This document shows positions 35,301 through 49,436 of a stretch of 64,000 bases of DNA, piece by piece; position 1 is the stretch's first letter; the number at the start of each line of letters is the position of its first letter. The notes under the pieces are model-generated. The model worked only from the letters and a program-made list of their open reading frames with translations, made no database searches and was not told the DNA's origin. Made by a program: the position numbers and the translations under genes. Origin of the DNA: a virus; IMG/VR virus record IMGVR_UViG_3300049893_001613, positions 32,444-96,443 of that record; one strand, given 5' to 3'.

Positions 35301-38300
35301 TCTGATGATGATAACTACTTCAAGCGTGCTAAACACATTGTAACTCCGGGTATCAAAGGATACTCTGAAACCCCGGTTACCATCTCAATAGGTGTTTATC
35401 CTAAACAGATGAAGATCAATACTCCTGAATACCTCAGTGAATTAGCTAAGTGGGTTGAGGATAAGGGGTTAATTAAAGCTTACGAAGAGATCAACAAGAC
35501 TGATGCACAGTCACTGGCCGACATAGATACATATCGTATCATGGCTGACTCTATTGGACAATGGAGCCCTGACCACGAGCGTGTGTACAAGATTGCGTGG
35601 TCAAAAGGAATCACTATCCGTAAAGCTACAAAAGAACTTGTAAAATTAAATCTGATTACTGAAGAAGAAGGTCGAGACTTGATGAAGACTGCGTCTCGTA
35701 TTCTACTCCAACCGTTGAAACCTTCTCGTGCAAGATACAGAAAGCACAGATTACCAGACGGTAAAGTAATCATTATAAAAGAGTGGTTCAAAGACAGTAT
35801 CACACCTATTACTCCTGAATTAGCTGTAACCCATAAGGGATACGAAGACCTGTTAGCTTACATGAAGACTAATCAGGTTGGAATTATGTCAGCTGAAGAT
35901 ACAGTGAAAGTAGGTCTGTACGGTTCTATCACAGATCTATCTGTTCCTATGGAGCAGTGGCAGAAGAGAACCATATCTTTAGAAGACATTCGCTACCCTC
36001 AGATTCTTCCGGATAAGAAGAAGACTAAAATTAAAGGTACCCAGTTCCATAAACTGGCTTTAGGTAATATCCAAGACAAAGTGAAATATAAAGTAGGTAA
36101 TACTACAATGCTTGGTTCTACTGTCAAAGAGAAATGGAATGAATACTGGCTGGAGAAAATCCAAACTTCTGATAAGAAACTTTGGACCCAGCTTGGGGTA
36201 GGCGAAAACTTTGAGTTATCTGAAGATCCTGCAATCAGAAAAACACAGCTTTACAAATTAAAGCTTGTACTTGAACAGGAATTCTCTTCAAGAGACTTAA
36301 ACGAAAACTATCAGGATGTTCTTGAATTGATCCGGATCGCTAATGATCAGATTGACTTCAAGCTCCCTATATCAATACCAATGTTTGGACAGAAGTTCCA
36401 ATCTATCCTGTCTAACCTATGGAGAAAGAAAATCCTCGCTCAGGACAGCCCTGGATACGCTGCAGTTAACCTTGCAGATTGGGGAACAGGATATGATGAC
36501 GAATTGAAGTTCATCCAGAATGAGAATGGTGAAGTTATTGAAGCTGAGATCGGCCTGCCCCTCGAGAACCTTGGAAAACTAGGGTTAAAGTATGGTGATA
36601 ACGTGCTTCCTAACGGACGTATAGTTTGGGACCGTTTAACTGAAGCTCAGAAACAAGCACTGCAGTTTATTCTGTACCGTATTCCAACATCCAACAAATC
36701 ATCTATGATTCCGGTAAGAGTAGTTAAAATACTACCTTCTAACCTGAACAATGTAGTAATGATTCCTGGTGAACTTACTGTACAACAAAGCTTAGACTTT
36801 GACGTAGATAAGTCACAACTACTTGCAAGAGTACTTACCAAAGACGGCTCTGTAGATAAGGATAATGTCGATACAAAACTATTCGATCTGTACTGGGGTA
36901 TTCTAACAAACCCAGCCCATATTGAAGAGGTCCTTACTCCTCTTGATTCTAAGACTCTGACCATGAAGTTAAATGAGTACAGAAACAAAGGATTAATAGA
37001 CGAGAACAAAGGATCTTCATTTGCAAGCGCTGATGTCGATATCGAAGCTGAACTTAAGAACAAAGACGCAAAAGCTGAAATTGGTATTACTTCTCGTTTC
37101 AATACCGGACATACAATGCTGCAGATGATAAAAGACTTTGTGTCTGTGACGATGGGTATCAATATCAAAGTTGGTAACAAGTACGAGCACTCGAATCTTG
37201 GAGCTATGTATGATGCTAATGGTGAAGTGCTAATCTCACGTAACCTTGCTGAAACACAACAAGCAGCTCTGGATGCAGCTAATACACCGCTACTATCTTA
37301 CTTCAATGTAGTAACTGGTACAATGAGCTCATTCTGTACTATGATCCTTTATGGAATACCTCTTCCTGTAGTAACAGATTTCTTCATGCAACCTGTTATT
37401 GCTGAATGGACTAAATTCTACGAACAAGAGGGTCTTAATGCTGATAAAGCGACCCAAAGACTGTTTGCTGAATATCCTGCAATCAAGAATCAATACAATG
37501 CACTTGAAGAAGGTACCGTTAAAGTTGGTCTTACAGAAGAAGGGCTTTCAGCTTACCTGGGACAAAAAATAGGAACCTCAACCTCACACGATGCACGTGT
37601 GTTGCTGGAGTTCCGTAATATAATGACTATTGCTTCACAATTAAGTAAGGTTAATAACGTGTTATCAATCGATACGTTCAAAGACACTACTGGTATTGAA
37701 GCAATGGAAGGATTAGTACAACAGGTTAATGACGCTATTGACCCTGATAAGCCAGTAGCACTTGACATGCGTATGTTTGAACTTGATGAGACTCCTCCGG
37801 TTGGAAAGCGTTTAGCTGCTTTCTACCAGTATGGTGTAGTCAACTTCCTGAAGTATGCTGGTCAGTTCTTCCCTTCAGCAACAATGCCTTACAGAGCTGT
37901 AAGAACACATTTTGCTGTAAGTATGGGACAAGCTGGTATGACTAACAAAGATTCTATCAAGTCGATCAATCAGTTTACAGACTACTTTAACCTGGAACAC
38001 GATGGATTCCTGTCAAGATCTCTTGAGAATATCCATCCTCAGAAAGCTTCTTACCGTACAAGATGGTCGTTTACAGACCCTAAGAATACCTTATGGATGC
38101 ATATCGACAAGATGATCGATAAGTATCCGTCTCTGAAGAATAACGAGCTCATCCGTAACCTGGAAACCGGTAAGACATACGGTGAAGGTGTACAGATGCT
38201 TGGTATCCGTAATACAGACGGTAATACCAATAAGACTGAAGTGACAAACGGCTGGTACGAGTTATTAACAAGTACCAATGAAGAAATCCGCGGTTTAGGC

Positions 38301-41300
38301 CACGATTTGGTCCGTTTTGCTACGTTTACTACTGGTTTTGAATTCAATCCACGTTCAATGTTTGAACTGATTCCTGTATCTTTCTGGACTGAGTCCGGAG
38401 TAGAAGCAGGTTGGAGAAACATCGTTAAAGCCGGGGAAGCATTGCAGATTGACCGTGATGCAGTTATTCTGAACTACGTTCGTCACCAGTTCAGAACAAT
38501 GAAAAGATTCCCTGAAATCTATGGTAAGTTTACTAAAGAGAAAGGATTCATTTCTGATCTTGTTAAGGAAGCTACCCTTGAACCAGGTACTCAGCATATC
38601 ACTAAATTTGTACTAAGTGATGGTTACTTAACCCGTGGTATACCTCCTCGCTTCATAAGAGCTAAGAACGGAGCTACCGGTGAGTACCACCTATACGAGC
38701 AAAGCCCTGCTAATAACATGGTTTATGCTGAGCTACAGCCAGCTGGTGAACCATATGGATACATAGAAGTATCTGCAGATGGTCGTGCTGAATCACGTCT
38801 GCCTGCGAATAGAAGAACTAAAGCTTCTACTCATCCATGGAGCTCTGGACCAGTTGTGTCTAAAGCATTCCCATTATTTACTGGTACTACTTTAGGTGAG
38901 AATCCTATCATTACTCAGTATCTGCCTGAAGACAAGAACCACGCAGGTACTACCCTTGAGAAGTTAGCAGCTGAGGAGACTGATGTAGATACTAAGAAGA
39001 ACATAGAAGCTCTTTTACGCAACGTTGATAAGATTAACACACCTGTTATCCTTGCACCATTAGGTAACCAGCTAGGGGTGTTCGAAGTGGATACGAGAGG
39101 AATAAGTGTTATCAAGATTAAACCAAATGGTAACGTAGAATCTGAATCACAGATGCGCCATGTGCTTCTTCACGAATTGAACCACGCGTTCTCTGTTGAA
39201 GTATTACTCAACCCGGTTGGAAAAGAACAGGAGAATTTCAGAACAAATGTTGAACGTCTTGCAAAAGAGAACAACATGGATAAGTTTGAATTCCTTGCTG
39301 AACTTGCTTCAAATAAAGACTTCAGAGCTAAACTCAGAAAGAAAGGCTTCTGGGCCCGTGTACTCCGTGCTTTACGTAAATTGTTAGGATTTACTGACCA
39401 GTTCGATAAAGTACTTGATCAGTACTATGATATCCTTGACAATGCGGAAACTCTGCAGGCTATGACTCCTGGAGAATATGCTATGAAAGAGGAGAAACCA
39501 GTAGGAAGAAAGAGAATTGACATTCTTGCTCAAGCCTTAGCTTCTCTTAAATCAAGAGCTAAACTGCTTTCTGATAAAGGTAAACGTACTGAATCCAAGG
39601 AACTACACAACCGTATTAAAGTCTTCAAAGAATTAATGAAGACTAAGAGAAATGAAGCGGTTATTAACTACATCCTGCAGGTAGATGATGAGATCCAGAA
39701 ACTAAAAGGCGCTTTTGCTTTAATGGCTAAGAGCCCTGACAAGGTTGATCCGGATACACTATATTCTATGCGTCAGCAATTAACATCGTACAAGTTACTT
39801 GATGCTTTCGCTGACCAGATCCACCTTAGCCCTACAAGCTTCGTGCCTGAGGGAGGTAACAGTGATATTCTGTTAAAGAACCTTGATGACCTGCGTGCTG
39901 ATGTCCATAAACTGAACAACAACACAAGAAGATTAGCTATCATACGTTTTGCTTCAGTAGCAAAGAAGGCTCTTAATGACCCTACTTTAACCCTGGAGAG
40001 TTTAATAGACAACTTTGATCGTGCTGACCGTGACGTACACTTCATCAACAGATTTGTTGAAACTGGTATGGAAATCAATGACCCAGCTGTAAAGACTGCA
40101 GCTAAACTGTTGATCGACAACCAGGCTGAAGCTTACAGAAAAACCCAGGATGACCTGTACATTACAAGTCCTAAATCTCAGACAGCTACAATAGTTGTAA
40201 AAGAGAAAGGAAAGAACAATAAGTTCAAGTGGACAACCAGAAAGGTTAATTTCACTTCTGTAGGTATGATGAAAGCTTTGTCAGAATATGAAACATGGCT
40301 TAAGAGTAAAGGCAAGAACATCAATAACTTTGTGGATAAGTTTGGACCGGTTATAGACATCGACTCACTTGAACAGAATGCAGATGGTGTACACTTAATC
40401 TCGCCATGGTCTCCAGAAGGACAAAGAATAATGTCTATCCCTGAGAGCTCACCAGACTTCCCATTACGTCAGTTCTATGAAACCTTCGTAATGCAATATC
40501 TAAAGAGCCAGGAGAGTATCCCAGCGTACAGTCACCGTCCTGGACTACGTATCCCAAGCATCCAAAGATCTATGCTTGAAGGATTAAGCCGTGAAGAAGG
40601 AGCTGGTAAGTTTGTACTGCTGAAAGAAGCTGCTATCGACAAGGTACGCCAGCGCTACGATGAGACTGACTTTAAAGCAGTTGATCAGAATGGTAAACCT
40701 CAGGAGTACATTCCTGTAAGATTTATTTCTAAACAGGATGGACAAGAAGGCAGATTATCTACCCGTGAAGTAAGTTTAGACCTTGCTACTACACTACCAC
40801 TATTCATCAACGAGTCATACAAGAGACAAGGATTAGAAGCACTTAATGCTGACCTGGAACTTGGTAAACTTGTGCTTGCTGAAAGAAGAGTAGTTAAAAC
40901 CCGTAACGTAGCAGGCCCTGGATTAACACCATGGTTAAGTAACAAGAAAGAAGGTATTCCTCTAGCTTCAGGAGAATTTGATACTATCCCGGGTGAACAG
41001 TCGAACTCTTACCAGACCTATGATTCTCTTCTAAAGAGATTCATGTATGGTGAAGTTAAGAAGAACGAGCTTGATGTTGAATTAGGTGGTAATAAGTTCA
41101 GTGGTGCCAAGATGATCGACACCCTGCTACAAGCCACTGGTATCAAAATCATGTTTGCTAACGTAGCTATCCCACTCACCAACTTAATTATGGGTGAAGT
41201 ATCCATGATCAAGGAGATTGTTGGGGGAAATGTGATTAACAGAAAAGATTATTCTGCAGGTATGTCCTTCTTCAAGAAAATAGCATTACCTTCACTGGCT

Positions 41301-42419
41301 GATGTTGGAAGAAGAGAAAAGAAGACTAAAGCCGGTCGTATCTTGACATACTTCAACCCGGTTGATTCTAACCGTCCTGTATCTGACCTTGGTGTTGATA
41401 CTAACTGGATGAGAACTATCTGGAGTGGTGTAACACGTACTGGTGGTACAAGTATAGAATTCTACCTTGGCGCCAAGTCTATTGGGGCTGTGTTTAACAG
41501 GTTCAAAGCTATTAACCCTGAAGGTAAAGAAGTTGGATTGTATGATGCCCTGGAGATTACTCCTGAAGGTAAAGTATCACTTGCAAAAGGATACAAGTTC
41601 CGTGGTAAGGATTCAATAAGCTCAGCTGATATTAACGAGGTGCGTAACTACGTGCTCCGTACATACCAGATGATGAACGGTATCTACAACACAATTGACA
41701 AACCAGCAGCAAATGCTTATGCATTAGGTCGTCTGGTTGGGTTCATGCGTAACTGGTTAGTCCCTGGTATTCAAGCCAGATGGAAGACTAAACACTTTGA
41801 CGAGCGTTTAAACCAGGAGAATGAAGGTCATTACCTTTCAGCAGTAGTAGCATTCAATAACATCTTTGGTAAAAACGGGTTCTTAAAGGGGTCAATCGAT
41901 GCTCTTCGTATTCTGACATGGTTTGGAGTACATGATGAGAAGTTATTATTACTTCCTGAAGAGCTTGAACTTGATGAAGAGAAACAACAGGAGATTATCA
42001 ATTTACGTAAAGCTAACATCAGAAAAACATTGTTTGAACTGTGGGCCATTATAGGCATAACAATCCTTATGGGCACCGCGTGGGACGATGATGACGATAG
42101 CTACATAAAGTACATGCTAGCTCGTGTGAAGCGTGAATTAAGTACATTCTACTCACCACAAACTGGTTGGGAAGTACTACGTTCTCCTTCAGTAGCTCTT
42201 AACTTCCTTGACGGTATCGCTAAGATACAGAGAGACGTAGTTGAATCTACAGGATCGTTTATAACTGGTGATGAACAACCACGCTACCAACAAGGACCTC
42301 ATAAAGGTGAACTTAAGCTTGTAGCTGACCTCAAGAGTCAATTTGGTCTTAACTTCGATGCTCAGTTTGAAGCTTTGGGAACAAAGACAAGATTGATACA
42401 ACGAGGAGGATACAAATAA
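26337..42419 (+). CDS. Giant virion polyprotein: virion RNA polymerase fused to two zincin metalloprotease motifs
   Basis: The 5,360-residue protein takes up a quarter of the window. In order: a hydrophobic N-terminal region (about 155-185); coiled coils (400-620); an acidic Pro-rich linker (663-730); a Thr/Pro linker (near 1228-1245); a zincin motif HEAMH at 1326-1330; EFQSD at 1618-1622 and a YLPTYASM segment near 1990, both of polyvalent-protein type; the DFDVD motif at 3487-3491, preceded by YRIPTSNKSSM, matching the catalytic DFDxD of crAss-like double-psi-barrel RNA polymerases; a second zincin motif HELNH at 4279-4283; and a C-terminal membrane segment near 5232-5250 followed by five Asp. 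It is probably packaged, ejected and then proteolytically matured, transcribing early genes in the host. Domain functions between the motifs are unassigned. Confidence 0.85.
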   Translation: MAKKTPLTDLGFDQLGKVKPLAPLGTTPDPLGFDTQVNSPSPYEGPTPSEQYTPGYIAETSLKDHIAANQDGWDQFANFFEQTGVGALAGTIETASYMADFEQHWNWLKGEETEYKNWLGEGMKKIVEENKELFPIYLSEKNEGFEPSSAEWWAHHGGSGLGTVLGLLVPGLGVAKLGKLAGMGKTGQAISATVASRTAESTMEANQVFEESYKTLLDRGIDTETAKQLAGKAATTTWNTNWLFALQDFAQFNTILKGAKVSAKGAKGLGIKQFLGQSAWEGAEEAGQYTVQQEAKRLALESDADYFGAGFNKRLADYVDDDEFLTSTLLGAAGGGLFHVAGKAAEAVTEVQQGDYIPRIKEKIFNTVKRGLQKVRANTVDDTGTSQTISNVELANMYVDRLNKGKLNNYTEELEELKKKTETDSDVKRTIDEHIEDVEFLKTEEARLKNSPIPAEFHKHILTTTLEQRQKSRLQKQLSNELQALEQDLLREDQLTPELQQLKKLQISAAGYAKLAQTNPKFVPVAEQMTKAFEQAKQDFKAGNVLGAIADLDKVLLTNRDAALFEKAFQLISTQEQQKDLKDELAKVTTPEGLAQIAKERAEKKINAESQAVLNNPKATKEEILQAAANTTDEALKVELAKKHQALVDADKAANEAKTKALVDEGAPEAPEERLPDEIPFDFDPNFEVVPEVEDAPLPDEIPFAGGLSPEQAQKWGGLSPEQVTTMLSQLNTEQQEAKPVPTDQQGEKDIKASEARRDQSTVGTISMDHLGDEAQTPQKYHHVNGQVGTAEDVFAVEPMTGQLLVNTPVIQPGMTVTLKVENEFPWTQRAGFVPNSVDNYTINVYMEGVSQPLTQLRNVDNKKLNEPAKVEEQDNNRALRNRIIAAGGTLQTTITGKNLGSIRVSDRKNSVEIFQSDFVETPEGWSFQNTGHNPAFGFIDFNGLIEVPNLRSMAGMSSATADRIEAAVLELSKNTAQLSKMRGKIITFRTGPDGTMRIIGLEPNKLNENEVNWLIQNLPGLISSKNYTDLDSVVYMPKHAPGVYSANKGLPDVLTLDRRRIHLVNTTKTKADVLLPLTGEAGKKIWVILDSPQLKPMLSGQPFGFRIMTPDGNKTAVMLNHPAGPKIAEQFKKLLSNQFKNINKKNLNSEIVYTDPTDPNATPSNSYYEYLVKTGSLYTNLPGSKTLGNGKDSSYSFNQVSLYLDPNPADEVAKVDHSGETTIIHDVKPAPIPTPTETPTPKKRGSALDEIYGEGKLRAVVGNHKFETITEKELQWFKETYGEEFLTIAKNIDKIVTEGGVEAFGMYYNAMVTLAEKGETGSLAHEAMHLVLDPMTGVVSAKEREDILNAAAKAYGIERSYDTLQPKLRVTDSYAGPIAPLATEEAGETKAPKDYIDYFKKRYNLAKTKYGGPRTAKQKEKHKDRLDTFASRLRSGYVNRKFINQRAEAPKFAEIDKAGEIIPITLRFLENIKKNKNHSTSLERPFSFKDATPKENEVLKEFYDALKAEIELKFKSENKPVPKNISNDRLVDKLDEWLQKNYSIQAYPVPTTHQPYGLYSIISGHPKVEGGEVFISDGLHFPQLNTGHAKQLTDKTYSNTLGWYINAKINDSTFLYEFQSDILPEIAEGNFTFVRRVQTPEDQETGEIEFISSLPSKLSYDHLKFTRTASEAEVKNKIADVVEDYVDTWMESTADDLLHAEKHMRGDSSASRQPTPDAEIDRLIENANKPSLALTAAYIGHKKKTGIIKKLVNDYEKSNEANPQEFFNKLEKVLAQSIKPILELAEFQSPKSFFVSEADDVSAHIKVETASGRKYYLNSIKRVLDDIVTTNTTRRSRPGRRPAQQEPVKVPKTLKELFKMQKENKERLLKMAHSAVLRNKATETKAALQSEIGEYYEVRREKIKNYFKELLFEEGAPYQDYISEVVEYNTKQVMRELTGDDTKYKVGEDLAKLQTTYEHWYKVMFDKFIRVALYRAKQEGLKEVYLPTYASMTAIEGSKQTGRIYTTPFEDRDVAAQQKIDKTGQFEVDDINYVRLRPEDRTSPIDLSDDAWPGELEAGLEEAERRKAEGTKYYKGSEQISEEEYKAAAEKFVKSRRVGPFYAALSKIKGVKIQGLETPDWSKEPLLKVNLEEYNPVNLERFRTVTPDYSNLTNDAKIEEMLAEEFRNYWLSDGKIKPTEPKVKGFFARLMNFIKKLLGFKGPIEKLFYQVANTPLSQEQRLAIQNKAKGMVDPQDPKFRKLPGFKYIKQQQETIQAFSSEVIKVAHELSRKEEVYLGDFLTNKTNIQNVFEAVKANFQEDLERIKKLTEWTSEEEARYYSYLAAGIGSPLEGDDMYVGQYEDTTTVTGFPEDGFKSKVLKDLARYGFKVKLSDGTDYENNQEEDEQTAELENSIDESGEGEFLYAVDKSLINPSKSMSQRMKMFLALIPEPLTNEKGEYVGDKKTVFGTTKFLDFRKVDGNLTLKLRDSINPLTRLTNLAKNDPIARVVLNALMEEKNKGNKQLFNEFVAKYNRDGYYKKTVLYGTKLVNLKPSEIDPAMPNVRTRLELFAKTIDSDRASSDRVLHNRWREEGIRKKVTDTDGTVNQTKADGLLKRFNDFKAKYVAAQNKKSPLTFEETKAEFESLLGELGVTLHPNLWKEFDAIVNPGLKRKKLAELFFGLRSRTLEQLLENTAKGNDPYEGSTVLTTLSRMSSVYMEDSRGGAYRNDSGKQENPINWPSALTELINQVKNNNQSVFEYFTDDDFYKGNQFLNVVKANPDKIDLTFSSVSKRNNEDPKDFENRRKIDSIIMRLTTFYNNGGNEALIFTGTPETSTKQPILSLPKYKGTKDARDFLFTVLKNTMNSEITRIQKIKAFAGEDPLLANIKNYGKATKFVYIPGLNSIPNLVESLANGEVSPEQKAEALNSANAEINRFIDDHFMRFKNWLLANDVIEQSVKGVVTSNRIPEGLLDNREVETFLQEFYFNDLAWRMSVSQVLMGDKALYSDDDNYFKRAKHIVTPGIKGYSETPVTISIGVYPKQMKINTPEYLSELAKWVEDKGLIKAYEEINKTDAQSLADIDTYRIMADSIGQWSPDHERVYKIAWSKGITIRKATKELVKLNLITEEEGRDLMKTASRILLQPLKPSRARYRKHRLPDGKVIIIKEWFKDSITPITPELAVTHKGYEDLLAYMKTNQVGIMSAEDTVKVGLYGSITDLSVPMEQWQKRTISLEDIRYPQILPDKKKTKIKGTQFHKLALGNIQDKVKYKVGNTTMLGSTVKEKWNEYWLEKIQTSDKKLWTQLGVGENFELSEDPAIRKTQLYKLKLVLEQEFSSRDLNENYQDVLELIRIANDQIDFKLPISIPMFGQKFQSILSNLWRKKILAQDSPGYAAVNLADWGTGYDDELKFIQNENGEVIEAEIGLPLENLGKLGLKYGDNVLPNGRIVWDRLTEAQKQALQFILYRIPTSNKSSMIPVRVVKILPSNLNNVVMIPGELTVQQSLDFDVDKSQLLARVLTKDGSVDKDNVDTKLFDLYWGILTNPAHIEEVLTPLDSKTLTMKLNEYRNKGLIDENKGSSFASADVDIEAELKNKDAKAEIGITSRFNTGHTMLQMIKDFVSVTMGINIKVGNKYEHSNLGAMYDANGEVLISRNLAETQQAALDAANTPLLSYFNVVTGTMSSFCTMILYGIPLPVVTDFFMQPVIAEWTKFYEQEGLNADKATQRLFAEYPAIKNQYNALEEGTVKVGLTEEGLSAYLGQKIGTSTSHDARVLLEFRNIMTIASQLSKVNNVLSIDTFKDTTGIEAMEGLVQQVNDAIDPDKPVALDMRMFELDETPPVGKRLAAFYQYGVVNFLKYAGQFFPSATMPYRAVRTHFAVSMGQAGMTNKDSIKSINQFTDYFNLEHDGFLSRSLENIHPQKASYRTRWSFTDPKNTLWMHIDKMIDKYPSLKNNELIRNLETGKTYGEGVQMLGIRNTDGNTNKTEVTNGWYELLTSTNEEIRGLGHDLVRFATFTTGFEFNPRSMFELIPVSFWTESGVEAGWRNIVKAGEALQIDRDAVILNYVRHQFRTMKRFPEIYGKFTKEKGFISDLVKEATLEPGTQHITKFVLSDGYLTRGIPPRFIRAKNGATGEYHLYEQSPANNMVYAELQPAGEPYGYIEVSADGRAESRLPANRRTKASTHPWSSGPVVSKAFPLFTGTTLGENPIITQYLPEDKNHAGTTLEKLAAEETDVDTKKNIEALLRNVDKINTPVILAPLGNQLGVFEVDTRGISVIKIKPNGNVESESQMRHVLLHELNHAFSVEVLLNPVGKEQENFRTNVERLAKENNMDKFEFLAELASNKDFRAKLRKKGFWARVLRALRKLLGFTDQFDKVLDQYYDILDNAETLQAMTPGEYAMKEEKPVGRKRIDILAQALASLKSRAKLLSDKGKRTESKELHNRIKVFKELMKTKRNEAVINYILQVDDEIQKLKGAFALMAKSPDKVDPDTLYSMRQQLTSYKLLDAFADQIHLSPTSFVPEGGNSDILLKNLDDLRADVHKLNNNTRRLAIIRFASVAKKALNDPTLTLESLIDNFDRADRDVHFINRFVETGMEINDPAVKTAAKLLIDNQAEAYRKTQDDLYITSPKSQTATIVVKEKGKNNKFKWTTRKVNFTSVGMMKALSEYETWLKSKGKNINNFVDKFGPVIDIDSLEQNADGVHLISPWSPEGQRIMSIPESSPDFPLRQFYETFVMQYLKSQESIPAYSHRPGLRIPSIQRSMLEGLSREEGAGKFVLLKEAAIDKVRQRYDETDFKAVDQNGKPQEYIPVRFISKQDGQEGRLSTREVSLDLATTLPLFINESYKRQGLEALNADLELGKLVLAERRVVKTRNVAGPGLTPWLSNKKEGIPLASGEFDTIPGEQSNSYQTYDSLLKRFMYGEVKKNELDVELGGNKFSGAKMIDTLLQATGIKIMFANVAIPLTNLIMGEVSMIKEIVGGNVINRKDYSAGMSFFKKIALPSLADVGRREKKTKAGRILTYFNPVDSNRPVSDLGVDTNWMRTIWSGVTRTGGTSIEFYLGAKSIGAVFNRFKAINPEGKEVGLYDALEITPEGKVSLAKGYKFRGKDSISSADINEVRNYVLRTYQMMNGIYNTIDKPAANAYALGRLVGFMRNWLVPGIQARWKTKHFDERLNQENEGHYLSAVVAFNNIFGKNGFLKGSIDALRILTWFGVHDEKLLLLPEELELDEEKQQEIINLRKANIRKTLFELWAIIGITILMGTAWDDDDDSYIKYMLARVKRELSTFYSPQTGWEVLRSPSVALNFLDGIAKIQRDVVESTGSFITGDEQPRYQQGPHKGELKLVADLKSQFGLNFDAQFEALGTKTRLIQRGGYK

Positions 42420-42420
42420 A

Positions 42421-42460
42421 AAAAAATACCTTAGAAGCCGTGAAGCCTCTAAGGTATTTT
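42421..42460. terminator. Bidirectional terminator between the convergent blocks
   Basis: AAAATACCTTAGA at 42423-42435 is perfectly complementary to TCTAAGGTATTTT at 42448-42460 (13 bp), with A-runs on the left and T-runs on the right. On either strand the hairpin is followed by a U-run, so it can end both the virion-block transcript and the minus-strand NAD-island transcript. Both terminal genes stop within a few bases of it. Confidence 0.92.
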
Positions 42461-42461
42461 A

Positions 42462-43145
42462 CTACAATTCAAAATAGGTACCATGTGACGTGAGTCCAAG
42501 ATCGAATTTCCGGTCTGTGACTGCTGTTGCATTAATGAAGAGTGTTTGTACACCTTCAATTTTACGCGTGCCGACATTGATACAGTCTTCAAAGTTGTGG
42601 ATGTGCCCAAAGATATGGACACGTGGTTGTTTTTCAAGTACATGATTTAAAAGGGCTTTATCACCACAATATTCCAGCTCATCTCCCCGGTTACGGGTTA
42701 AATCCAGAACACCTTTAGGAGGACCATGGGTTACCAGGATATCAAGCTCATCAGGGATCTCATCCCAATAAGGGTCAAGCTTGCTTCTACTGACATTATA
42801 AGCCCAGCCTACTCCAAAAGAAGGAGTATAAGGACTTCCAAAGATCTTTAAACCACCAACTTCCTGCGTTTCATGGTGCAAAAAGGTAATGGTTTCATAC
42901 TTCCTGGGGTCTACTAATCCTGCTTCAATTGATGTGTCGTGGTTTCCAGCAATCAGTACTTTGTACTTAACGGGTAACATGTTGTACCAAACAAGGAAGT
43001 TCAATGCTTCGATTGAGTTTCTCGCTGGATTAGAATAGTTACCAAAGTCACCCCCATGGATAATCATGTCAAGCTCTTTTGGTAGTTTGAGCATTCCATG
43101 AAATCCATGAGTGTCACTTATCGCGAGAATTCTTAGCTTTCCCAT
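42462..43145 (-). CDS. Calcineurin-like metallophosphoesterase
   Basis: The 227-residue protein has all five motifs of the family in order: SDTHG (residues 10-14), HGGDFGN (about 30-36), GNHD (66-69), THGPP and GHIH. These residues bind the two metals and the phosphate, so it should be an active phosphodiesterase or phosphatase, with substrate unknown. It is the last gene of the minus-strand NAD/ADP-ribose island and stops beside the bidirectional terminator. The HNH gene upstream runs 32 bases into its start. Known relatives include nucleotide and ADP-ribose-type pyrophosphatases, which would suit the neighbours, but RNA or cyclic-nucleotide substrates cannot be excluded. Confidence 0.85.
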   Translation of the reverse strand: MGKLRILAISDTHGFHGMLKLPKELDMIIHGGDFGNYSNPARNSIEALNFLVWYNMLPVKYKVLIAGNHDTSIEAGLVDPRKYETITFLHHETQEVGGLKIFGSPYTPSFGVGWAYNVSRSKLDPYWDEIPDELDILVTHGPPKGVLDLTRNRGDELEYCGDKALLNHVLEKQPRVHIFGHIHNFEDCINVGTRKIEGVQTLFINATAVTDRKFDLGLTSHGTYFEL

Positions 43146-43575
43146 TATATTTAATATTGTTTGAAGAATAATTTTCTTTTAAGTATGTTATGGCTTTTAA
43201 TAAAAGTAATTCATTGTCTTGAAAATAACCAAGCGCAAAATTACAAGTTGTACACAACAACCCACGGACTAACATAGTATCATGACAATGATCTACAGCA
43301 AGCTTTTTTCCATTTTCACTAGCTGTTTTTCCACAAATTGCACACTGACCATTCTGATAAGTGTGTACATTATCGTACTGTACAGGAGTTAGTCCCGTAT
43401 TATATTTAGTCATAATTGACTTGCGTCTCGATGGATTACGTTTAGCCCAAGCTGAACACTGAACTATATTACATTTTTTGCAATCAGGTCGATGTCTATC
43501 TGGTTTTTGTTTATCATTATAAAATTCAGTGATCGGTTTTTCTACCCCACATTTAGTACAAATCTTTGTTTCCAT
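43114..43575 (-). CDS. HNH endonuclease, endonuclease VII-like, homing type
   Basis: I start at the ATG ending at 43575 (METKICTKCG). The longer frame to 43602 would overlap a promoter-like box. The 153-residue product has an N-terminal Cys finger (CTKC...CKKC, about residues 5-35) and a C-terminal endonuclease VII-like HNH domain (CAICGK... LAVDHCHD... RGLLCTTCNFALG). It is free-standing between the NAMPT-family gene and the phosphoesterase and overlaps the latter by 32 bases. Its N-terminal finger resembles that of the second HNH gene in this island, so they are probably related mobile elements. Confidence 0.8.
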   Translation of the reverse strand: METKICTKCGVEKPITEFYNDKQKPDRHRPDCKKCNIVQCSAWAKRNPSRRKSIMTKYNTGLTPVQYDNVHTYQNGQCAICGKTASENGKKLAVDHCHDTMLVRGLLCTTCNFALGYFQDNELLLLKAITYLKENYSSNNIKYNGKAKNSRDK

Positions 43576-43589
43576 GAAAATCATTTTAT

Positions 43590-43597
43590 CAAAGATA
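43590..43597 (-). promoter_or_regulatory. Bacteroidota-type -7 box for the HNH gene at 43114-43575
   Basis: On the minus strand TATCTTTG (consensus TAnnTTTG) is followed by ATAAAATGATTTTC and the ATG at 43575. The same arrangement precedes the other HNH gene. A -33 element is not clear. The spacing to the chosen start is about 14 bases. Confidence 0.5.
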
Positions 43598-43641
43598 CGC
43601 ATTAAAGTTGAAATAGAAAAACTTTTTCACTAAATTATTTT

Positions 43642-45159
43642 TCAAGCTGTTTGTAATTCATATTTACTTAATCTTTCCCGTATCTCAGCAAGAGTAGTAG
43701 TCTTAATCATACGACCATCTTTGAATACAGTTTGTAGAGCTCCATGAGCTTCTTGATCAGGTGTACACTGGTCCAGTAAAGTGTAAGTATGTGAACCGTC
43801 TGCAACTGTAGTAGGCAGAACACATAGTAATCCTTTAGCTGACTTCTTGGTACCATCATCAGTAACGGGATCTTTCCAGATCTCTCTGGCTTCAGTATAA
43901 ACCATTGGGGGTTTAGCTGACATCTTGTTTTCAATCTTCACTTCACCATAAGTTGCTTTCATTGCAAAGCCAAAAGTATCACGAGTATTATATTGGTAAG
44001 TAAAACTACCAATGCCAAGCACCACATTAGTGCTGGCAAAGCCCTTTGCCTGTAATCTCTTACATATTTGTTCAGCACGGTCAAGAGTAATACTATCGCC
44101 ATAAATTGCTCCAATATGACTATCCAATAACTTATATTCTTTTCCATCATTTCCTGTTACATATGTTCCTCCAAATATTTCCCAAAGAAGTTCTATAACA
44201 CCATAATAATCTGGTGTATGTTTCATGCCTTCATAATGAGGGCCTAATTTACCACAAATAATATCAACAGGATTACCAGAATCCGGACGAATAACTAACT
44301 TACCCTCTCTAGCCATGATTTTAGATTTCAAAGCTGGTAGAATTACAGTTATTACTTTCCATAAATCCCAAGTGTCAGACACAACAGATAGAATTCCAGT
44401 CGGGTAGAGTGACAGTAGCCGCTTAAACGTCTCAATCTCGCTATCTTTAGTGCCCATACACATAACGGAATGCTCCGTGGCAGGTACCGAAGCACCAATG
44501 AGATCACTACCACTATATGAATGCTCAAGTTGATAGATGGCAGGGATAGTATCTGTGCCACTGAAAGATAACAGATGGCCCATGCCACTGAGAATAGCAG
44601 ACTCAACAGAAGACATACCTCGCATAGAAAAGTCATGGCCTTGCCATTGGACAAAGTCCGCAGACCCTGTTGTTTCCAGTGCATATTTCGTGAGTAGTTT
44701 CTTGTATTCATAAGCTATTGTTGCTGAAGTCATAGGTTGCCATAACATACAGCTTAAAAGGGTTTCAAGATAGTTTACTAACCAGGCAAAGTCTGGGTGA
44801 GTGTTTGTAATTGTAAATACCGGTACACCAATAGGACATAAAGTACCTTCAGGAAGTGCTTTAATCTCAATAGGTAAGTAACCTAAGTCATGTAACGCTT
44901 CAAGGCGTTTAGTACTAATTGGGACGTGTCTCGAGTACTCAGCCATCAGCGATTCTTTTTCCTTCCAGAAGAATTCTCTGTTAAAAGAATCAATCAGGTA
45001 AGTCAGACAGAAGTGCTGAATACCAAATACTACCACCTGCTTTATCTCAGGTATACGGCTCTTACGAGGCGTGAAATTCGAGTACAACTTCACCATACCA
45101 TCAGGATACATATCCTGATGATGTGGTTTATAGAAGTCTACGTATAATAGTGGATTCAT
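43642..45159 (-). CDS. NAMPT-family phosphoribosyltransferase (Nampt or Namat of a NARP pathway)
   Basis: The 505-residue protein is full length for the nicotinamide phosphoribosyltransferase family. Visible hallmarks are HDFSMRGM (175-182), SVPATEHSV with the catalytic-position His230, VSDTWD with Asp262, VIRPDSGNP (289-297) and the GDSITLD loop. Family members join nicotinamide to an activated ribose: PRPP for Nampt (giving NMN), or ADP-ribose pyrophosphate for phage Namat (giving NAD+ directly). A PRPP-synthetase-family gene four genes upstream, and no NMN adenylyltransferase in view, favour the Namat reading, although sequence alone does not settle substrate choice. It begins two bases after the AAA+ gene ends. 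Confidence 0.88.
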   Translation of the reverse strand: MNPLLYVDFYKPHHQDMYPDGMVKLYSNFTPRKSRIPEIKQVVVFGIQHFCLTYLIDSFNREFFWKEKESLMAEYSRHVPISTKRLEALHDLGYLPIEIKALPEGTLCPIGVPVFTITNTHPDFAWLVNYLETLLSCMLWQPMTSATIAYEYKKLLTKYALETTGSADFVQWQGHDFSMRGMSSVESAILSGMGHLLSFSGTDTIPAIYQLEHSYSGSDLIGASVPATEHSVMCMGTKDSEIETFKRLLSLYPTGILSVVSDTWDLWKVITVILPALKSKIMAREGKLVIRPDSGNPVDIICGKLGPHYEGMKHTPDYYGVIELLWEIFGGTYVTGNDGKEYKLLDSHIGAIYGDSITLDRAEQICKRLQAKGFASTNVVLGIGSFTYQYNTRDTFGFAMKATYGEVKIENKMSAKPPMVYTEAREIWKDPVTDDGTKKSAKGLLCVLPTTVADGSHTYTLLDQCTPDQEAHGALQTVFKDGRMIKTTTLAEIRERLSKYELQTA

Positions 45160-45161
45160 AG

Positions 45162-46253
45162 TTAAAATGCGTAATCGCGGAAGTTAGCGTGATAATTTAC
45201 TCTGTTCTCAAGACGGAACGTTCTTTCAATATCAGCACGTTTACCATCAAGTATACCATTATTCTTAACAGTAATTTCATTACCGTTGACAGCTGTGATT
45301 TCACCCTGATTCTTGTGGTCGAAGTACAGATTATGACCGATCTTATCAGCATCATCAGTATCCTCATCCAGTATCCACGGTGGTTGAATTTCTACAGAGA
45401 AGTCAAACACGTCACTAGGATTTTTACCATCAGTGCGGTTTAACCAGTATACATCGAATCTGCGTTCTTTCTTTGTAACGTTGAAGATGTCTTCAAACTC
45501 AGAAGGATTCTCATTATGGATATTAACTTCATTGATTACAGCTTTAACAATATCAACAGTAATGATGTTTAACTGTGCAATGAACTTAACTACTTCAGAT
45601 TTGAATTCTTTGTTTACAAGGAGGTCATCTACAATCTCAATGATGGCATTTAACGACAAGTCACCAAACTGTTTGATATAACGTAATCTACTGGGTCTTT
45701 CCAGCATGTTAGCGTTAACTCTTGGCTTGTTGGTTGTCAAGATAAACAATCTTCTGTGTTGTTTGTTAGATGTACCATCCATTAAACTAAGGATACTACC
45801 CCCGTTTGCAATACCATCTTGATCATCCTCTTCAGATACATTATCTCCATAAACTTTTTCAAATTCATCGAAGAATACGATGCAATCCTGTTGTACGTTT
45901 TCAAGAAATCCTCCCAAACCTTTAAAAGGTCTGTCAACAAGGATAATAGGTAACCCAACCTCACCACAGATTAATTCTGCAGTTACAGTTTTACCAGTAC
46001 CTTTGATACCATTAAGAAGAATACCAATATTACCGGTTGTATTTAACCAAGTAGTGGCTACTCTTTTAACAAAGTTGGTTTCGATATCATACAGCTTGTA
46101 CCCGAATGTAAATTCATCCTGTGTACGAGCTAAGTACGTTACTCCGGTTGGAGTCATTCTTATAGAATAAACTCCTTTTCCTAATCTTTCTACTTCCTGG
46201 GAAGTTTCACTTGGGTAATATTCATTACCGCTTGTTTGCCATTTGATATTCAT
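45162..46253 (-). CDS. AAA+ ATPase of the NAD island
   Basis: The start is the ATG at 46253 (MNIKWQTSG). The extension to 46277 would need TTG. The 363-residue product has Walker A GIKGTGKT (82-89), Walker B IVFFDEFEK (126-134), a sensor-1 TTNKP and an arginine-rich segment ERPSRLRY. An uncharacterised C-terminal domain of about 120 residues follows. Such ATPases remodel protein or nucleic-acid complexes. It lies two bases from the NAMPT-family gene and one base from the unknown gene upstream, so it is co-expressed with the NAD genes. It could also be a general replication or packaging ATPase. Confidence 0.8.
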   Translation of the reverse strand: MNIKWQTSGNEYYPSETSQEVERLGKGVYSIRMTPTGVTYLARTQDEFTFGYKLYDIETNFVKRVATTWLNTTGNIGILLNGIKGTGKTVTAELICGEVGLPIILVDRPFKGLGGFLENVQQDCIVFFDEFEKVYGDNVSEEDDQDGIANGGSILSLMDGTSNKQHRRLFILTTNKPRVNANMLERPSRLRYIKQFGDLSLNAIIEIVDDLLVNKEFKSEVVKFIAQLNIITVDIVKAVINEVNIHNENPSEFEDIFNVTKKERRFDVYWLNRTDGKNPSDVFDFSVEIQPPWILDEDTDDADKIGHNLYFDHKNQGEITAVNGNEITVKNNGILDGKRADIERTFRLENRVNYHANFRDYAF

Positions 46254-46254
46254 A

Positions 46255-46731
46255 TTAATCTTTTTTGCATGGTTCAAATGTTACGTTGTACAATAATTTA
46301 GCAATCCAGCGATTGAAGGCGTTGTTTCTACCACAGTAGATGATTTTGTCTGACACGTAGTTGTCAAAATAGTCAGAATTTGAACTCTGATCATTTTCAC
46401 AACCGGTTACATACTCAGCTCCCTGAGGAATCACAAACAGATGTGAAGCGTTTTCAAACAGCAAACTCTTTCTTGGAATACGGGAATGAAATCCTTGATT
46501 GATTTCTACGTAATCCTTGTCGTAAGTGCTATTTCTAGTATACTCTACAGCATCAAGAGCTCTGCGTTTAAATGAAGGTTCATCTTCTATTTTGTACTTG
46601 CTGTATCTGTGTCCTGTGTGTTGAGATTGGGCTCTTTTAAAAAAGTTGTTGTCATCAAGTGCCTTATAACAAGGCGTGTTTTCCTTTGCAGTAGCGATTG
46701 CAAACTGCTTTTCTGGAATAAATAAGCACAT
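46255..46731 (-). CDS. Unknown protein of the NAD island
   Basis: The 158-residue protein has several conserved-looking features: NQGFHSRIPR (about 89-98), HLFVIPQGAEYVTGCEND near residues 107-124 and SDKIIYCG near 131-138. The 'GFHS ... IP.GA.Y..G ... Y.SDKI' arrangement is one I associate with small uncharacterised phage and bacterial proteins, probably beta-barrel. Nothing indicates membrane association. It is packed between the macro domain gene (5 bases) and the AAA+ gene (one base), and so belongs to the same transcript. Confidence 0.65.
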   Translation of the reverse strand: MCLFIPEKQFAIATAKENTPCYKALDDNNFFKRAQSQHTGHRYSKYKIEDEPSFKRRALDAVEYTRNSTYDKDYVEINQGFHSRIPRKSLLFENASHLFVIPQGAEYVTGCENDQSSNSDYFDNYVSDKIIYCGRNNAFNRWIAKLLYNVTFEPCKKD

Positions 46732-46736
46732 AATTT

Positions 46737-47273
46737 TTATTTTGTTTTTGGTTCATAAATTACGACTGTAACTTTACAGTCAATTAGTTCACTTTGGATG
46801 ATATCCTTTACTCTGTCCCAATCACCTCCTGCAAGGCCACACCCTATCTGGGGTAACCCGATGTGTTTGCCTTTAAAGATGTGGTTCATTTTTCTCAGGC
46901 ATAGAGTAAGAGCCTGATAATCTAATGGAGTTCTGCTTCCGTTCTGGTGATTGACACCCATACCATACTGAGTGTAAGCGTTTACAATACTTACATGGAT
47001 TTGGTTGTCAAACAACTCTTGTAAGTTTGAAGGACGTAGGTCCCCACCATCCCAGGTTAAATGAACTACATCAATAGTTCCAAGTTTGTTTATGTCCCCA
47101 TTGAATCTTTCATCTTCGAGAGGAAACTGATCACAACCGAATGCTTTAGCCATCTGAGGAGCTATTCCAGCTCCCATCGTGCAAAAACAATTCACTCCGT
47201 GGCATATAACATCGAAGGTACCTTGTTTGGCTAATGCAATTAAGTCTCCTTTGACTTCATTGTATGTTCCCAT
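46737..47273 (-). CDS. Macro domain protein (ADP-ribose binding/processing)
   Basis: The 178-residue protein is a stand-alone macro domain. Visible hallmarks are the N-terminal EVKGDL, HGVNCFCTMGAGIA (25-38), which forms the ADP-ribose distal-ribose loop, VNAYTQYG (98-104) and LPQIGCGLAGGDW (140-152), the phosphate-binding loop. Similar proteins bind ADP-ribose or hydrolyse ADP-ribose-1''-phosphate or ADP-ribosyl groups. Between a NAMPT-family and a synthetase-family gene, it could recycle ADP-ribose for NAD+ rebuilding or reverse ADP-ribosylation. The start lies inside the 3' end of the HNH gene (34-base overlap). Confidence 0.88.
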   Translation of the reverse strand: MGTYNEVKGDLIALAKQGTFDVICHGVNCFCTMGAGIAPQMAKAFGCDQFPLEDERFNGDINKLGTIDVVHLTWDGGDLRPSNLQELFDNQIHVSIVNAYTQYGMGVNHQNGSRTPLDYQALTLCLRKMNHIFKGKHIGLPQIGCGLAGGDWDRVKDIIQSELIDCKVTVVIYEPKTK

Positions 47274-47785
47274 ATTTCTTTTATTTTAGTTAAAAATTGT
47301 TCTTTTGAATAATCAAGTTTCATAGTGTTACATTGTGTACAACAAGGAACAATATTAGTAATTACATATCCTTTAGTAGAATCAATCCTATCAAGACCCA
47401 CTCCATCTATAGCTGTATTACAGTAATGGCAGTTAGTGTGATAAAATGATTGAAATTGTTCTTCAGTTAACTCCCAAGGAATATTACGTTTAGCGGCACT
47501 TCTAATGTACGACTGTAAGCGCCCTTTAAAAGACTGTCTCCAAGCCTTATGATTACTTAAAACTTGTTGTTTATTTTCTAAATAATATTGTTTTTTATTT
47601 AAACGAACTTCTTCTAGGTGAGCTTTTCTATAAGCTTTACGAGTCTCATTGTATTTAGATTCGCGCTTGGTGTTGTCTAATTTTTGGCAGCACTTACACC
47701 ATGAACGTAGTCCGTCTTGCTTACGACTATCTTTATAAAACTCATCTTCTGGTTTTTCCTGTCTACATTTGGTACAAATTTTCAT
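47240..47785 (-). CDS. HNH endonuclease, homing type, with N-terminal Cys finger
   Basis: The 181-residue protein has a CTKCRQEKP finger at 4-12 with WCKCC near 35, a basic helical linker (about 45-105) and an HNH core (CHYC ... LDRIDSTKGY ... IVPCCTQCNTMK). It sits between the synthetase-family and macro genes, overlaps the macro start by 34 bases and has its own -7 box. Its arrangement repeats that of the HNH gene at 43114-43575. It is an intruder in the operon and can carry the flanking genes by homing. Confidence 0.82.
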   Translation of the reverse strand: MKICTKCRQEKPEDEFYKDSRKQDGLRSWCKCCQKLDNTKRESKYNETRKAYRKAHLEEVRLNKKQYYLENKQQVLSNHKAWRQSFKGRLQSYIRSAAKRNIPWELTEEQFQSFYHTNCHYCNTAIDGVGLDRIDSTKGYVITNIVPCCTQCNTMKLDYSKEQFLTKIKEIWEHTMKSKET

Positions 47786-47802
47786 AAAACGTATATTTTA
47801 CA

Positions 47803-47810
47803 CAAATATA
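47803..47810 (-). promoter_or_regulatory. Bacteroidota-type -7 box for the HNH gene at 47240-47785
   Basis: On the minus strand TATATTTG (TAnnTTTG) is followed by TGTAAAATATACGTTTT and the ATG at 47785. The region 47786-47852 is the only sizeable gap within the lower part of the island. The -33 side (CATGGTGG) is only a weak match. Confidence 0.55.
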
Positions 47811-47852
47811 CTATTTTTTGCGGGAATTACCACCATGAGTAGAAGATTTATT

Positions 47853-48749
47853 TTACCAGAACATATTTAATTGTTTAACAAAAGTTGAATCTTTGATATC
47901 TTGTACAGAATTAGTACAGAAGATTCCATCATAGTATTCTTCCAGCTCCCCTAAACCTTTAGAGAATATACCGTGAGTTACAATAAGATAAAGTTTACCC
48001 TGCACATCGAATCTACCTGTATGGCGTTTCATTTGTCCGTTTAAGATTTTACCCAATTCTACAAAGGTGTAACCACCATCACAGATGTCATCTACTACAA
48101 TCATATCCTTTCCAGCTGAGTTACCATTATAAGGAACTTCTGTAGACAGGATCTTACCCGTAGCAACATCACGATGTTTACTTGCAAATACAATATCTCT
48201 TTTGTAGTTAATGTCAATAGCAAGCTTGTACATCTTCTTTATAGCTCCTGCATCAGGAGATACAAGCATAAAATCTTCCACTTCTTCAATATCCTTACCA
48301 TAGATTTGCTGTCCAGCGTAATCCAGTAACAATGTGTTGTCAAGGATATAAAGGTTATTAATACAAGCAGCTGTGACGTCAGAGTGTGGGTCCATCACTA
48401 CTACTCTGGATAGTTCCAGAGAGTTAATAACCGGAGCTACTACTTCAGCAAGATAATTTGTTCCACCTTTATGGAATCTTCTGTCTGACCTGGCTCCAAG
48501 TAGATAAGGAACAAACAACTGAATGTGTTCTATTCCCATTGCACGCAGTGCTTTTACAGCACATACAATGATTTCAAGATGAGCCCAGGAATTGAACCTG
48601 GCTTGTACATTTACATGATCTGTGATAGGATTAATAGGATCTGTAAATGGAGTTGTGTCTAGTACAATATCATGCTGCCCGTCAGGGAAGTGTGTGATTC
48701 TGTACTTAATGTCTGATTTGTCTAAATAAACGAGGTTAAGTGTTTTCAT
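47853..48749 (-). CDS. PRPP-synthetase-family protein (Prs or ADPR-PP synthetase Adps)
   Basis: The 298-residue protein has the ribose-phosphate pyrophosphokinase fold. Landmarks are PYLLGARSDRR (81-91), where the ATP-binding Arg-x-Asp-Arg lies, VVMDPHSD (117-124), LVSPDAGAIKK (162-172) and the ribose-phosphate loop VVDDICDGGYT (218-228). Cellular Prs makes PRPP from ribose-5-phosphate. The phage homologue Adps pyrophosphorylates ADP-ribose. Co-location with a NAMPT-family and a macro gene supports a NAD+-regeneration role. It overlaps the cREC-like gene upstream by 4 bases (ATGA). The substrate is not proven by motif inspection. Confidence 0.85.
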   Translation of the reverse strand: MKTLNLVYLDKSDIKYRITHFPDGQHDIVLDTTPFTDPINPITDHVNVQARFNSWAHLEIIVCAVKALRAMGIEHIQLFVPYLLGARSDRRFHKGGTNYLAEVVAPVINSLELSRVVVMDPHSDVTAACINNLYILDNTLLLDYAGQQIYGKDIEEVEDFMLVSPDAGAIKKMYKLAIDINYKRDIVFASKHRDVATGKILSTEVPYNGNSAGKDMIVVDDICDGGYTFVELGKILNGQMKRHTGRFDVQGKLYLIVTHGIFSKGLGELEEYYDGIFCTNSVQDIKDSTFVKQLNMFW

Positions 48750-49120
48750 AGTTTTTTAAAAAGGTTGATTATTCTTTCAGTTCCTACTGGATTCATTGAA
48801 TGCACAAACATAATTGGGAAAGGTATATTATTTTCAATGTAATAATCTTTCATCCATTTAGCACAATCGTAACCAGTCTTTTCCTGGTATACAAATCCTT
48901 CCGTCCAGGTAGTAGGGTCATAATGAATATCCGCTAAATCATGGTCAAAAGAGATATGAGTTATATCTTTGTGGAACACATGAATTATATCCTGAAAGTC
49001 CGGAAAGTTACGTACTACATGCCATTCTTCTAAGTAGATAGGATTTAAAGCACCTATTCGCTTATGCATGTAACTAACACATTCGCTAGGATTACGTACA
49101 TCATCTAAAAATATCTTCAT
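48746..49120 (-). CDS. Cyclic-phosphate-processing receiver-like (cREC) protein
   Basis: The start is ATG 49120 (MKIFLDDVRNP). The longer open frame to 49252 runs through a structured leader. The 124-residue product has a receiver-like fold with FLDDVRNP at residues 3-10, HISFDHDLAD near 54-63 and a C-terminal FVHSMNPVGTERI. The LDDxR...FDHDL...HS.N signature is that of the receiver-like family predicted to act on cyclic-phosphate intermediates in RNA-repair or NAD-linked pathways. It overlaps the synthetase gene by 4 bases, so it is co-translated with the NAD genes. The activity has not been shown and is inferred from the family. Confidence 0.75.
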   Translation of the reverse strand: MKIFLDDVRNPSECVSYMHKRIGALNPIYLEEWHVVRNFPDFQDIIHVFHKDITHISFDHDLADIHYDPTTWTEGFVYQEKTGYDCAKWMKDYYIENNIPFPIMFVHSMNPVGTERIINLFKKL

Positions 49121-49244: not shown

Positions 49245-49406
49245 TCATGCAATAAATATCTCCAGTTCAGCTCGTCTCAACTTCTCCTCAAGAAGTATAA
49301 GCCAGCCTTTTCTGGAATAAAGTAAGAAATAGTCTAACAGTTCATCCAACCGTTTGTTGGAAACCTGTCCTTTGTAATAATGAATGTATTTGATGCGATC
49401 TTCCAT
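49245..49406 (-). CDS. 53-residue helical protein
   Basis: ATG 49406-49404 opens a 54-codon frame ending in TGA at 49245. The product (MEDRIKYIHYYKGQ...) is entirely helical and amphipathic, with a LLDYFLLYSRKGWLILLEEKLRR core, and looks like a small helical hairpin. It starts just downstream of the UUCG terminator and ends immediately before the structured leader. Coding potential is supported by frame use and helix periodicity. Function unknown. Confidence 0.6.
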   Translation of the reverse strand: MEDRIKYIHYYKGQVSNKRLDELLDYFLLYSRKGWLILLEEKLRRAELEIFIA

Positions 49407-49413
49407 ATTAAAA

Positions 49414-49436
49414 GCAAAAAGGGGCCGAAGCCCCTT
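49414..49436 (-). terminator. UUCG-tetraloop intrinsic terminator
   Basis: On the minus strand AAGGGGC-TTCG-GCCCCTT (7 bp, exceptionally stable tetraloop) is followed by TTTGCTTTTAA. It lies downstream of the tRNA-like genes and upstream of the 53-residue gene, separating the sigma/tRNA transcript from the NAD island. Confidence 0.92.

Follow-up and report, generated by a model that had tools for sequence, protein, structure and literature searches.

The window analysed here, a stretch of 64,000 bases, comprises bases 32444-96443 of the 96,443-base virus record IMGVR_UViG_3300049893_001613 (feature coordinates below are those of the window), and it carries on its minus strand two genes that very probably constitute NARP1, the counter-defence module by which phages rebuild nicotinamide adenine dinucleotide (NAD+). 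One of them (47853-48749; phrog_619, 4e-66) encodes an Adps-type synthetase of 298 aa with the Prs fold, and the other (43642-45159; NAPRTase/NAMPT_N, phrog_448, 6e-182) encodes a Namat, or nicotinamide ADP-ribose transferase, of 505 aa. According to sequence comparison the source is a distant crAss-like phage, because its large terminase is nearest to that of Crassvirales, at ~30%. The first and the last 177 bases of the record are 97.7% identical and a helicase gene spans both of its ends, which makes it probable that the genome is complete.

The Namat-type protein is 52% identical (E=1e-156) to the Namat of Bacillus phage SPbetaL1, for which structures are available (PDB 9w5w/9w5x) and for which Lan et al. 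solved the NAD+ complex and listed the residues that touch NAD+ (PMC12774641). Nineteen of these 20 contact residues are identical in the window protein, and the sole change, A362 to Ser, is common to every other Namat compared. The clamp that receives the adenine part of ADPR-PP, the pyrophosphorylated form of ADP-ribose (ADPR), is fully kept (R35, F386, Y390, T392, D394), with the adenine-stacking residue of the clamp loop, R35, aligned with R40 of SPbetaL1, and the catalytic core is kept as well (F177, R180, D203, H230, R291, D293). The published Namat signature, GSX[TS]X[QN]X[NV]TRD, in which positions 3 and 7 are aromatic (PMC12774641), is matched by GSFTYQYNTRD in the window, which is identical to the SPbetaL1 sequence. 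At the two aromatic positions the mammalian Nampt and three phage Nampts, one of which adjoins a nicotinamide mononucleotide (NMN) adenylyltransferase gene, have Gly/Ala and Gln/Glu/Asp/Lys instead, and these four enzymes, which are of the type using phosphoribosyl pyrophosphate (PRPP), differ from Namat at F392, Y396 and S391. In a tree of 107 rows, 103 Namats including those of SPbetaL1 and of the window stand against the same four Nampts, and the separating branch has a length of 4.27 and a support of 100 in a tree with several long branches; the protein, which the preliminary description of this DNA had named as NAMPT-family, thus groups with the characterised Namat and apart from PRPP-type Nampt.

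The synthetase, whose model has a mean predicted local distance difference test score (pLDDT) of 91.5, matches Prs in Foldseek at 2.8e-15, and the residues aligned with the catalytic His and with the flexible-loop Lys/Arg of Prs are kept. Its PRPP loop reads VDDICDGGYTF, compared to VDDMIDTGGTL in Prs, so that DGGYT stands at the place of DTGGT of E. coli Prs. With the Prs model TIGR01251 it scores 81.8 against a cut-off of 113, and the SPbetaL1 Adps is also below this cut-off; unlike E. coli Prs, the synthetase gives no match to Pribosyltran_N and matches Pribosyltran alone, under its cut-off. We predict from these features that the enzyme converts ADPR to ADPR-PP. His230 of the Namat-type protein and the DDICDGG loop of the synthetase, on which the preliminary description had based its view that both catalytic cores look intact, are both present.

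That description also reported no visible NMN adenylyltransferase, and a CTP_transf_like search, positive in all 14 control genomes, extends this to the whole 96,443-bp record, where it finds no match. Among viral relatives we fetched the 80 loci with the closest Namats and kept 69 after reduction by Namat identity; in 63 of these 69 non-redundant loci an Adps partner gene accompanies Namat, always on the same strand.

From the Namat clade, the completely kept clamp, the paired Adps-type gene and the lack of an NMN adenylyltransferase match it would be logical to suggest, with a probability of about 85%, that the core gene pair is a NARP1 (Adps plus Namat) counter-defence module, and the earlier preference for the route through ADPR-PP over the Nampt/NMN route is borne out on these grounds. 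A host NADase of the TIR, SIR2 or SEFIR kind would split NAD+ into nicotinamide and ADP-ribose, the Adps-type enzyme would use ATP to add pyrophosphate to ADP-ribose, and Namat would couple nicotinamide to the resulting ADPR-PP, so that NAD+ would be regained in two steps and with no need for NMN adenylyltransferase. We infer both enzyme substrates and the anti-defence function from sequence, the substrates in particular from homology and from the residues described above. Several points weigh against this assignment: the synthetase shares only 27% identity with SPbetaL1 Adps; the Adps tree is rooted by a single long-branched Prs outgroup with weak support (49/56); and Namat makes NMN from PRPP in vitro too (PMC12774641), which leaves PRPP use by the window enzyme compatible with its sequence. 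The last point is also what gives ordinary salvage its ground, in which a Prs-like enzyme would make PRPP, a Nampt-like enzyme NMN, and an NMN adenylyltransferase supplied by the host NAD+; the NCBIfam label of the window Namat, nicotinate phosphoribosyltransferase, would fit it as well. We consider salvage highly improbable, taking into account that all adenine-clamp residues are kept, including aromatics absent from the four PRPP-type Nampts, that the protein lies in the clade of SPbetaL1 Namat, and that the synthetase is divergent and, in contrast to E. coli Prs, has no Pribosyltran_N match.

Both genes belong to a minus-strand unit with genes tightly packed between 42462 and 49406, which in the order of transcription are a 53-aa open reading frame (ORF) at the head (49245-49406, from the ORF list), cREC, Adps-type, HNH, macro, unknown, AAA+, Namat-type, EndoVII-type and metallophosphoesterase. 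The cREC protein (48746-49120; 124 aa from ATG) matches PF20274 (cREC_REC, 2e-19) over residues 45-166 of the longer ORF, and the end of its gene overlaps the start of the Adps-type gene by 4 bp. An HNH/EndoVII-type endonuclease of 181 aa (47240-47785; phrog_1035, 7e-30) is followed by a macro-domain protein of 178 aa (46737-47273; Macro 7e-5, phrog_335 8e-48), by a protein of unknown family of 158 aa (46255-46731), which has a weak PHROG match alone (phrog_13450, 1e-5) and no relative among viral contigs, and by an AAA+ ATPase of 363 aa from ATG (45162-46253; PF00004, 1e-14), whose ORF reaches a TTG at 46277. Downstream of Namat lie a second EndoVII-type (HNH) endonuclease (43114-43602; PF02945 1e-22, phrog_2633 2e-38), probably a free-standing homing endonuclease, and a calcineurin-like metallophosphoesterase of 227 aa (42462-43145; PF00149, 2e-14). 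The unit is closed by a terminator-like stem-loop on the minus strand (42423-42460; 17-bp stem and a T run) located between convergent genes, and another one on the same strand (49419-49436) stands ahead of it, after a tRNA-Ser gene. The convergent neighbour is a single plus-strand ORF of 5,360 aa (26337-42419). EndoVII-type genes adjoin Namat in several other phages (L011, L021 and L065), and their position may point to a homing-driven spread of the cassette.

The preliminary description had seen in this region a run of seven genes forming one NARP1-like island extended by ADP-ribose genes. The genes it named are at the coordinates it gave, all on the minus strand, and their families were recovered by profile matches; it missed the two endonucleases, so the run in fact holds nine genes and the 53-aa ORF. 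One strand, tight spacing and bounding terminators would agree with an integrated island, as would the position of cREC, which overlaps Adps in the window and lies <=210 bp from it in two relatives (L022 and L052). However, no other locus among the relatives examined carries the seven-gene set, and the run is interrupted by the two endonucleases; a conserved seven-gene island was rejected for lack of any relative carrying the set.

Linkage of single genes was assessed by asking whether they lie nearer to Adps/Namat than they would if placed at random within their locus, and in these and in the co-occurrence statistics below kinship among loci is not corrected for. Neither cREC (p=0.21, 8 loci among 69) nor the metallophosphoesterase (p=0.71, 9 loci among 69) is closer to Adps/Namat than random, and both were rejected as NARP1 partners; an AAA gene is near the pair in only 2 of the 69 loci, almost none of the AAA relatives has NARP1 in its region, and none of the loci of the closest cREC relatives contains NARP1. 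The macro gene behaves otherwise, being near Adps/Namat in 14 of the 69 relatives, between the two in 11 of them, with a mean gap of 954 bp compared to ~2,730 bp expected (p=0.002, random placement, 14 loci). What remains of the proposed extension by ADP-ribose genes is therefore the macro gene, linked in phages and in Bacteroidota, while cREC, the metallophosphoesterase and the AAA+ gene are not linked and are probably separate early genes which share the transcript. Altogether, we find it quite improbable that the whole seven-gene set acts as one integrated ADP-ribose island.

A sample of 80 chromosomal Namat loci from Bacteroidota, with Namats 55-59% identical to that of the window, contains Adps in 60 and a BT1257-type macro gene upstream of Namat in 13, so the macro-NARP1 link recurs outside phages, and with a second macro subtype. 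Three upstream proteins scanned in these bacteria are NrtR-type regulators (Nudix and winged helix), and L156, L198 and L204 show operons in which such a Nudix regulator accompanies Adps and Namat, and in some cases macro. NrtR regulators respond to ADP-ribose, the substrate of NARP1. A further locus, L008 (CAKLQF020000015.1), is filed as an Acinetobacter phage and has neighbouring genes of the Adps, Namat and NadM types; it resembles a bacterial chromosome, with genes of iron transport, efflux and dehydrogenases.

The macro-domain protein models as a fold of the ALC1-like class (TARG1/DarG/Poa1p), with a pLDDT of 89.8 and best Foldseek matches in PDB to TARG1 (2e-10), BT1257 (2fg1), DarG and Poa1p. 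The studied members of this class release ADP-ribose from 1''-linked derivatives (see also PMC9503650). From the model, a probable function of the protein is that of an ADP-ribose-releasing hydrolase. Expressed from the same transcription unit, such an enzyme would return ADP-ribose to NARP1 by cleaving 1''-linked derivatives, for which ADPR-1''-phosphate or adducts left by ADP-ribosylating defences are candidates. We hold this feeder role to be the most likely one for the macro enzyme, at about even odds; two observations speak against a specific link, namely that the excess of macro genes in NARP1 loci (14/69) over control loci (1/26) is borderline (Fisher p=0.06), and that phages in general often carry macro genes of this family.

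It is also possible, with a lower probability, that macro and cREC serve a separate function in RNA repair or signal clearing, where they would clean up ADPR-1'',2''-cyclic phosphate or ADP-ribosylated macromolecules, and are merely co-transcribed with NARP1. RNA repair has been predicted for cREC (PMC9503650), RNA ligases and kinases are present in related NARP1 loci, and the relatives of cREC and AAA stand apart from NARP1. On the other hand, the phage genome gives no match to a Nudix domain or to KptA (PTS_2-RNA), other RNA-repair genes having not been systematically searched there; in 11 of its 14 loci the macro gene, unlike cREC, is placed between Adps and Namat; and the second macro subtype occupies an equivalent place in Bacteroidota.

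Further partners came from an unbiased neighbour census of NARP1 loci. One of them, a HAD-like protein that carries the motif DxD[DN]T, occurs in 18 loci, in 14 of them between Adps and Namat (p=0.0002), where it is annotated as hypothetical or phosphoheptose isomerase (L005:8481-8912, L022, L041 and L076 are examples). Macro and HAD-like genes are never found in the same NARP1 locus (0/63, ~4 expected, Fisher p 0.006-0.013). A nucleoside-2-deoxyribosyltransferase-like protein (PF15891) is found near Adps/Namat in 23 loci (p=0.0002; for instance, L043:9471-9968) and could act as an N-glycosidase on derivatives of ADPR. The HAD-like gene that occupies the same slot to the exclusion of macro, and the linked deoxyribosyltransferase-like gene, are new from this comparison.

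We may even speculate, although we consider it unlikely, that macro, here together with cREC, repairs the NARP1 intermediate ADPR-PP. PRPP cyclises to a 1,2-cyclic phosphate. By this analogy the expected product of ADPR-PP is ADPR-1'',2''-cyclic phosphate, on which cREC is predicted to act and which would be converted to ADPR-1''-phosphate and then by the Poa1p-like macro enzyme to ADPR, available again for Adps; such a route is equally speculative. In this scheme the HAD-like protein would stand in as a phosphatase, because macro and HAD never co-occur, although the slot between Adps and Namat is where each is found.

The NARP1 core pathway itself is already known, as is the idea that a macro protein feeds it, and the closest parallels are instructive in what they share with the window and where they depart from it. 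NARP1 of SPbetaL1 has the same two-gene logic, and all of its clamp residues are kept in the 52%-identical window Namat; Adps and Namat are adjacent there, whereas in the window, which belongs to a crAss-like phage, the HNH, macro, unknown and AAA+ genes stand between them. The NrsAB pair of phage ICP1, whose Namat is 48% identical to that of the window, is the same gene pair and is genetically required against Nezha (SIR2-HerA), and in the part of its account available to us it is described as a two-gene system with no mention of a macro gene (PMC11559045). In Pseudomonas phage Adele, Adps, Namat and a Poa1p-like macro gene are close together, and it was suggested that the released ADPR feeds NARP1 (PMC12846349); there macro is downstream of the pair, in the window it is between Adps and Namat.

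Gut crAss-like phages cr111_1, DAC15, cr126_1 and cr85_1 carry Adps and Namat too, with Namats only ~51% identical to that of the window, and in cr111_1 a HAD-like gene, not macro, is found between the two. The Namat of cr85_1 (L010, 4352-5872) is annotated as split between a short N-terminal ORF and a longer one, and a frameshift or a sequencing error is a possible cause. DAC15, a cultured crAss-like phage of Bacteroides with the NARP1 pair, would permit genetic tests.

The accessory-enzyme links of NARP1 are little studied. Our analysis adds a distant crAss-like phage to the carriers of a complete NARP1 and shows that further genes often join the pair, with a slot between Adps and Namat that repeatedly holds a macro or a HAD-like gene. 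The nearest experimental precedent is RyDEP, encoded in the NARP1 operon of mycobacteriophage DyoEdafos, an ADPR-releasing enzyme shown to fuel NAD+ synthesis (PMC13232231). It resembles the window arrangement as an accessory gene in a NARP1 operon and, if the modelled function of macro is right, in the release of ADPR; it differs in being a RyR-domain glycosidase, a domain for which the window phage genome gives no match. Together with RyDEP, the described loci suggest a testable rule, that phages attach varied enzymes recovering ADP-ribose or repairing intermediates to one NAD+-rebuilding core.

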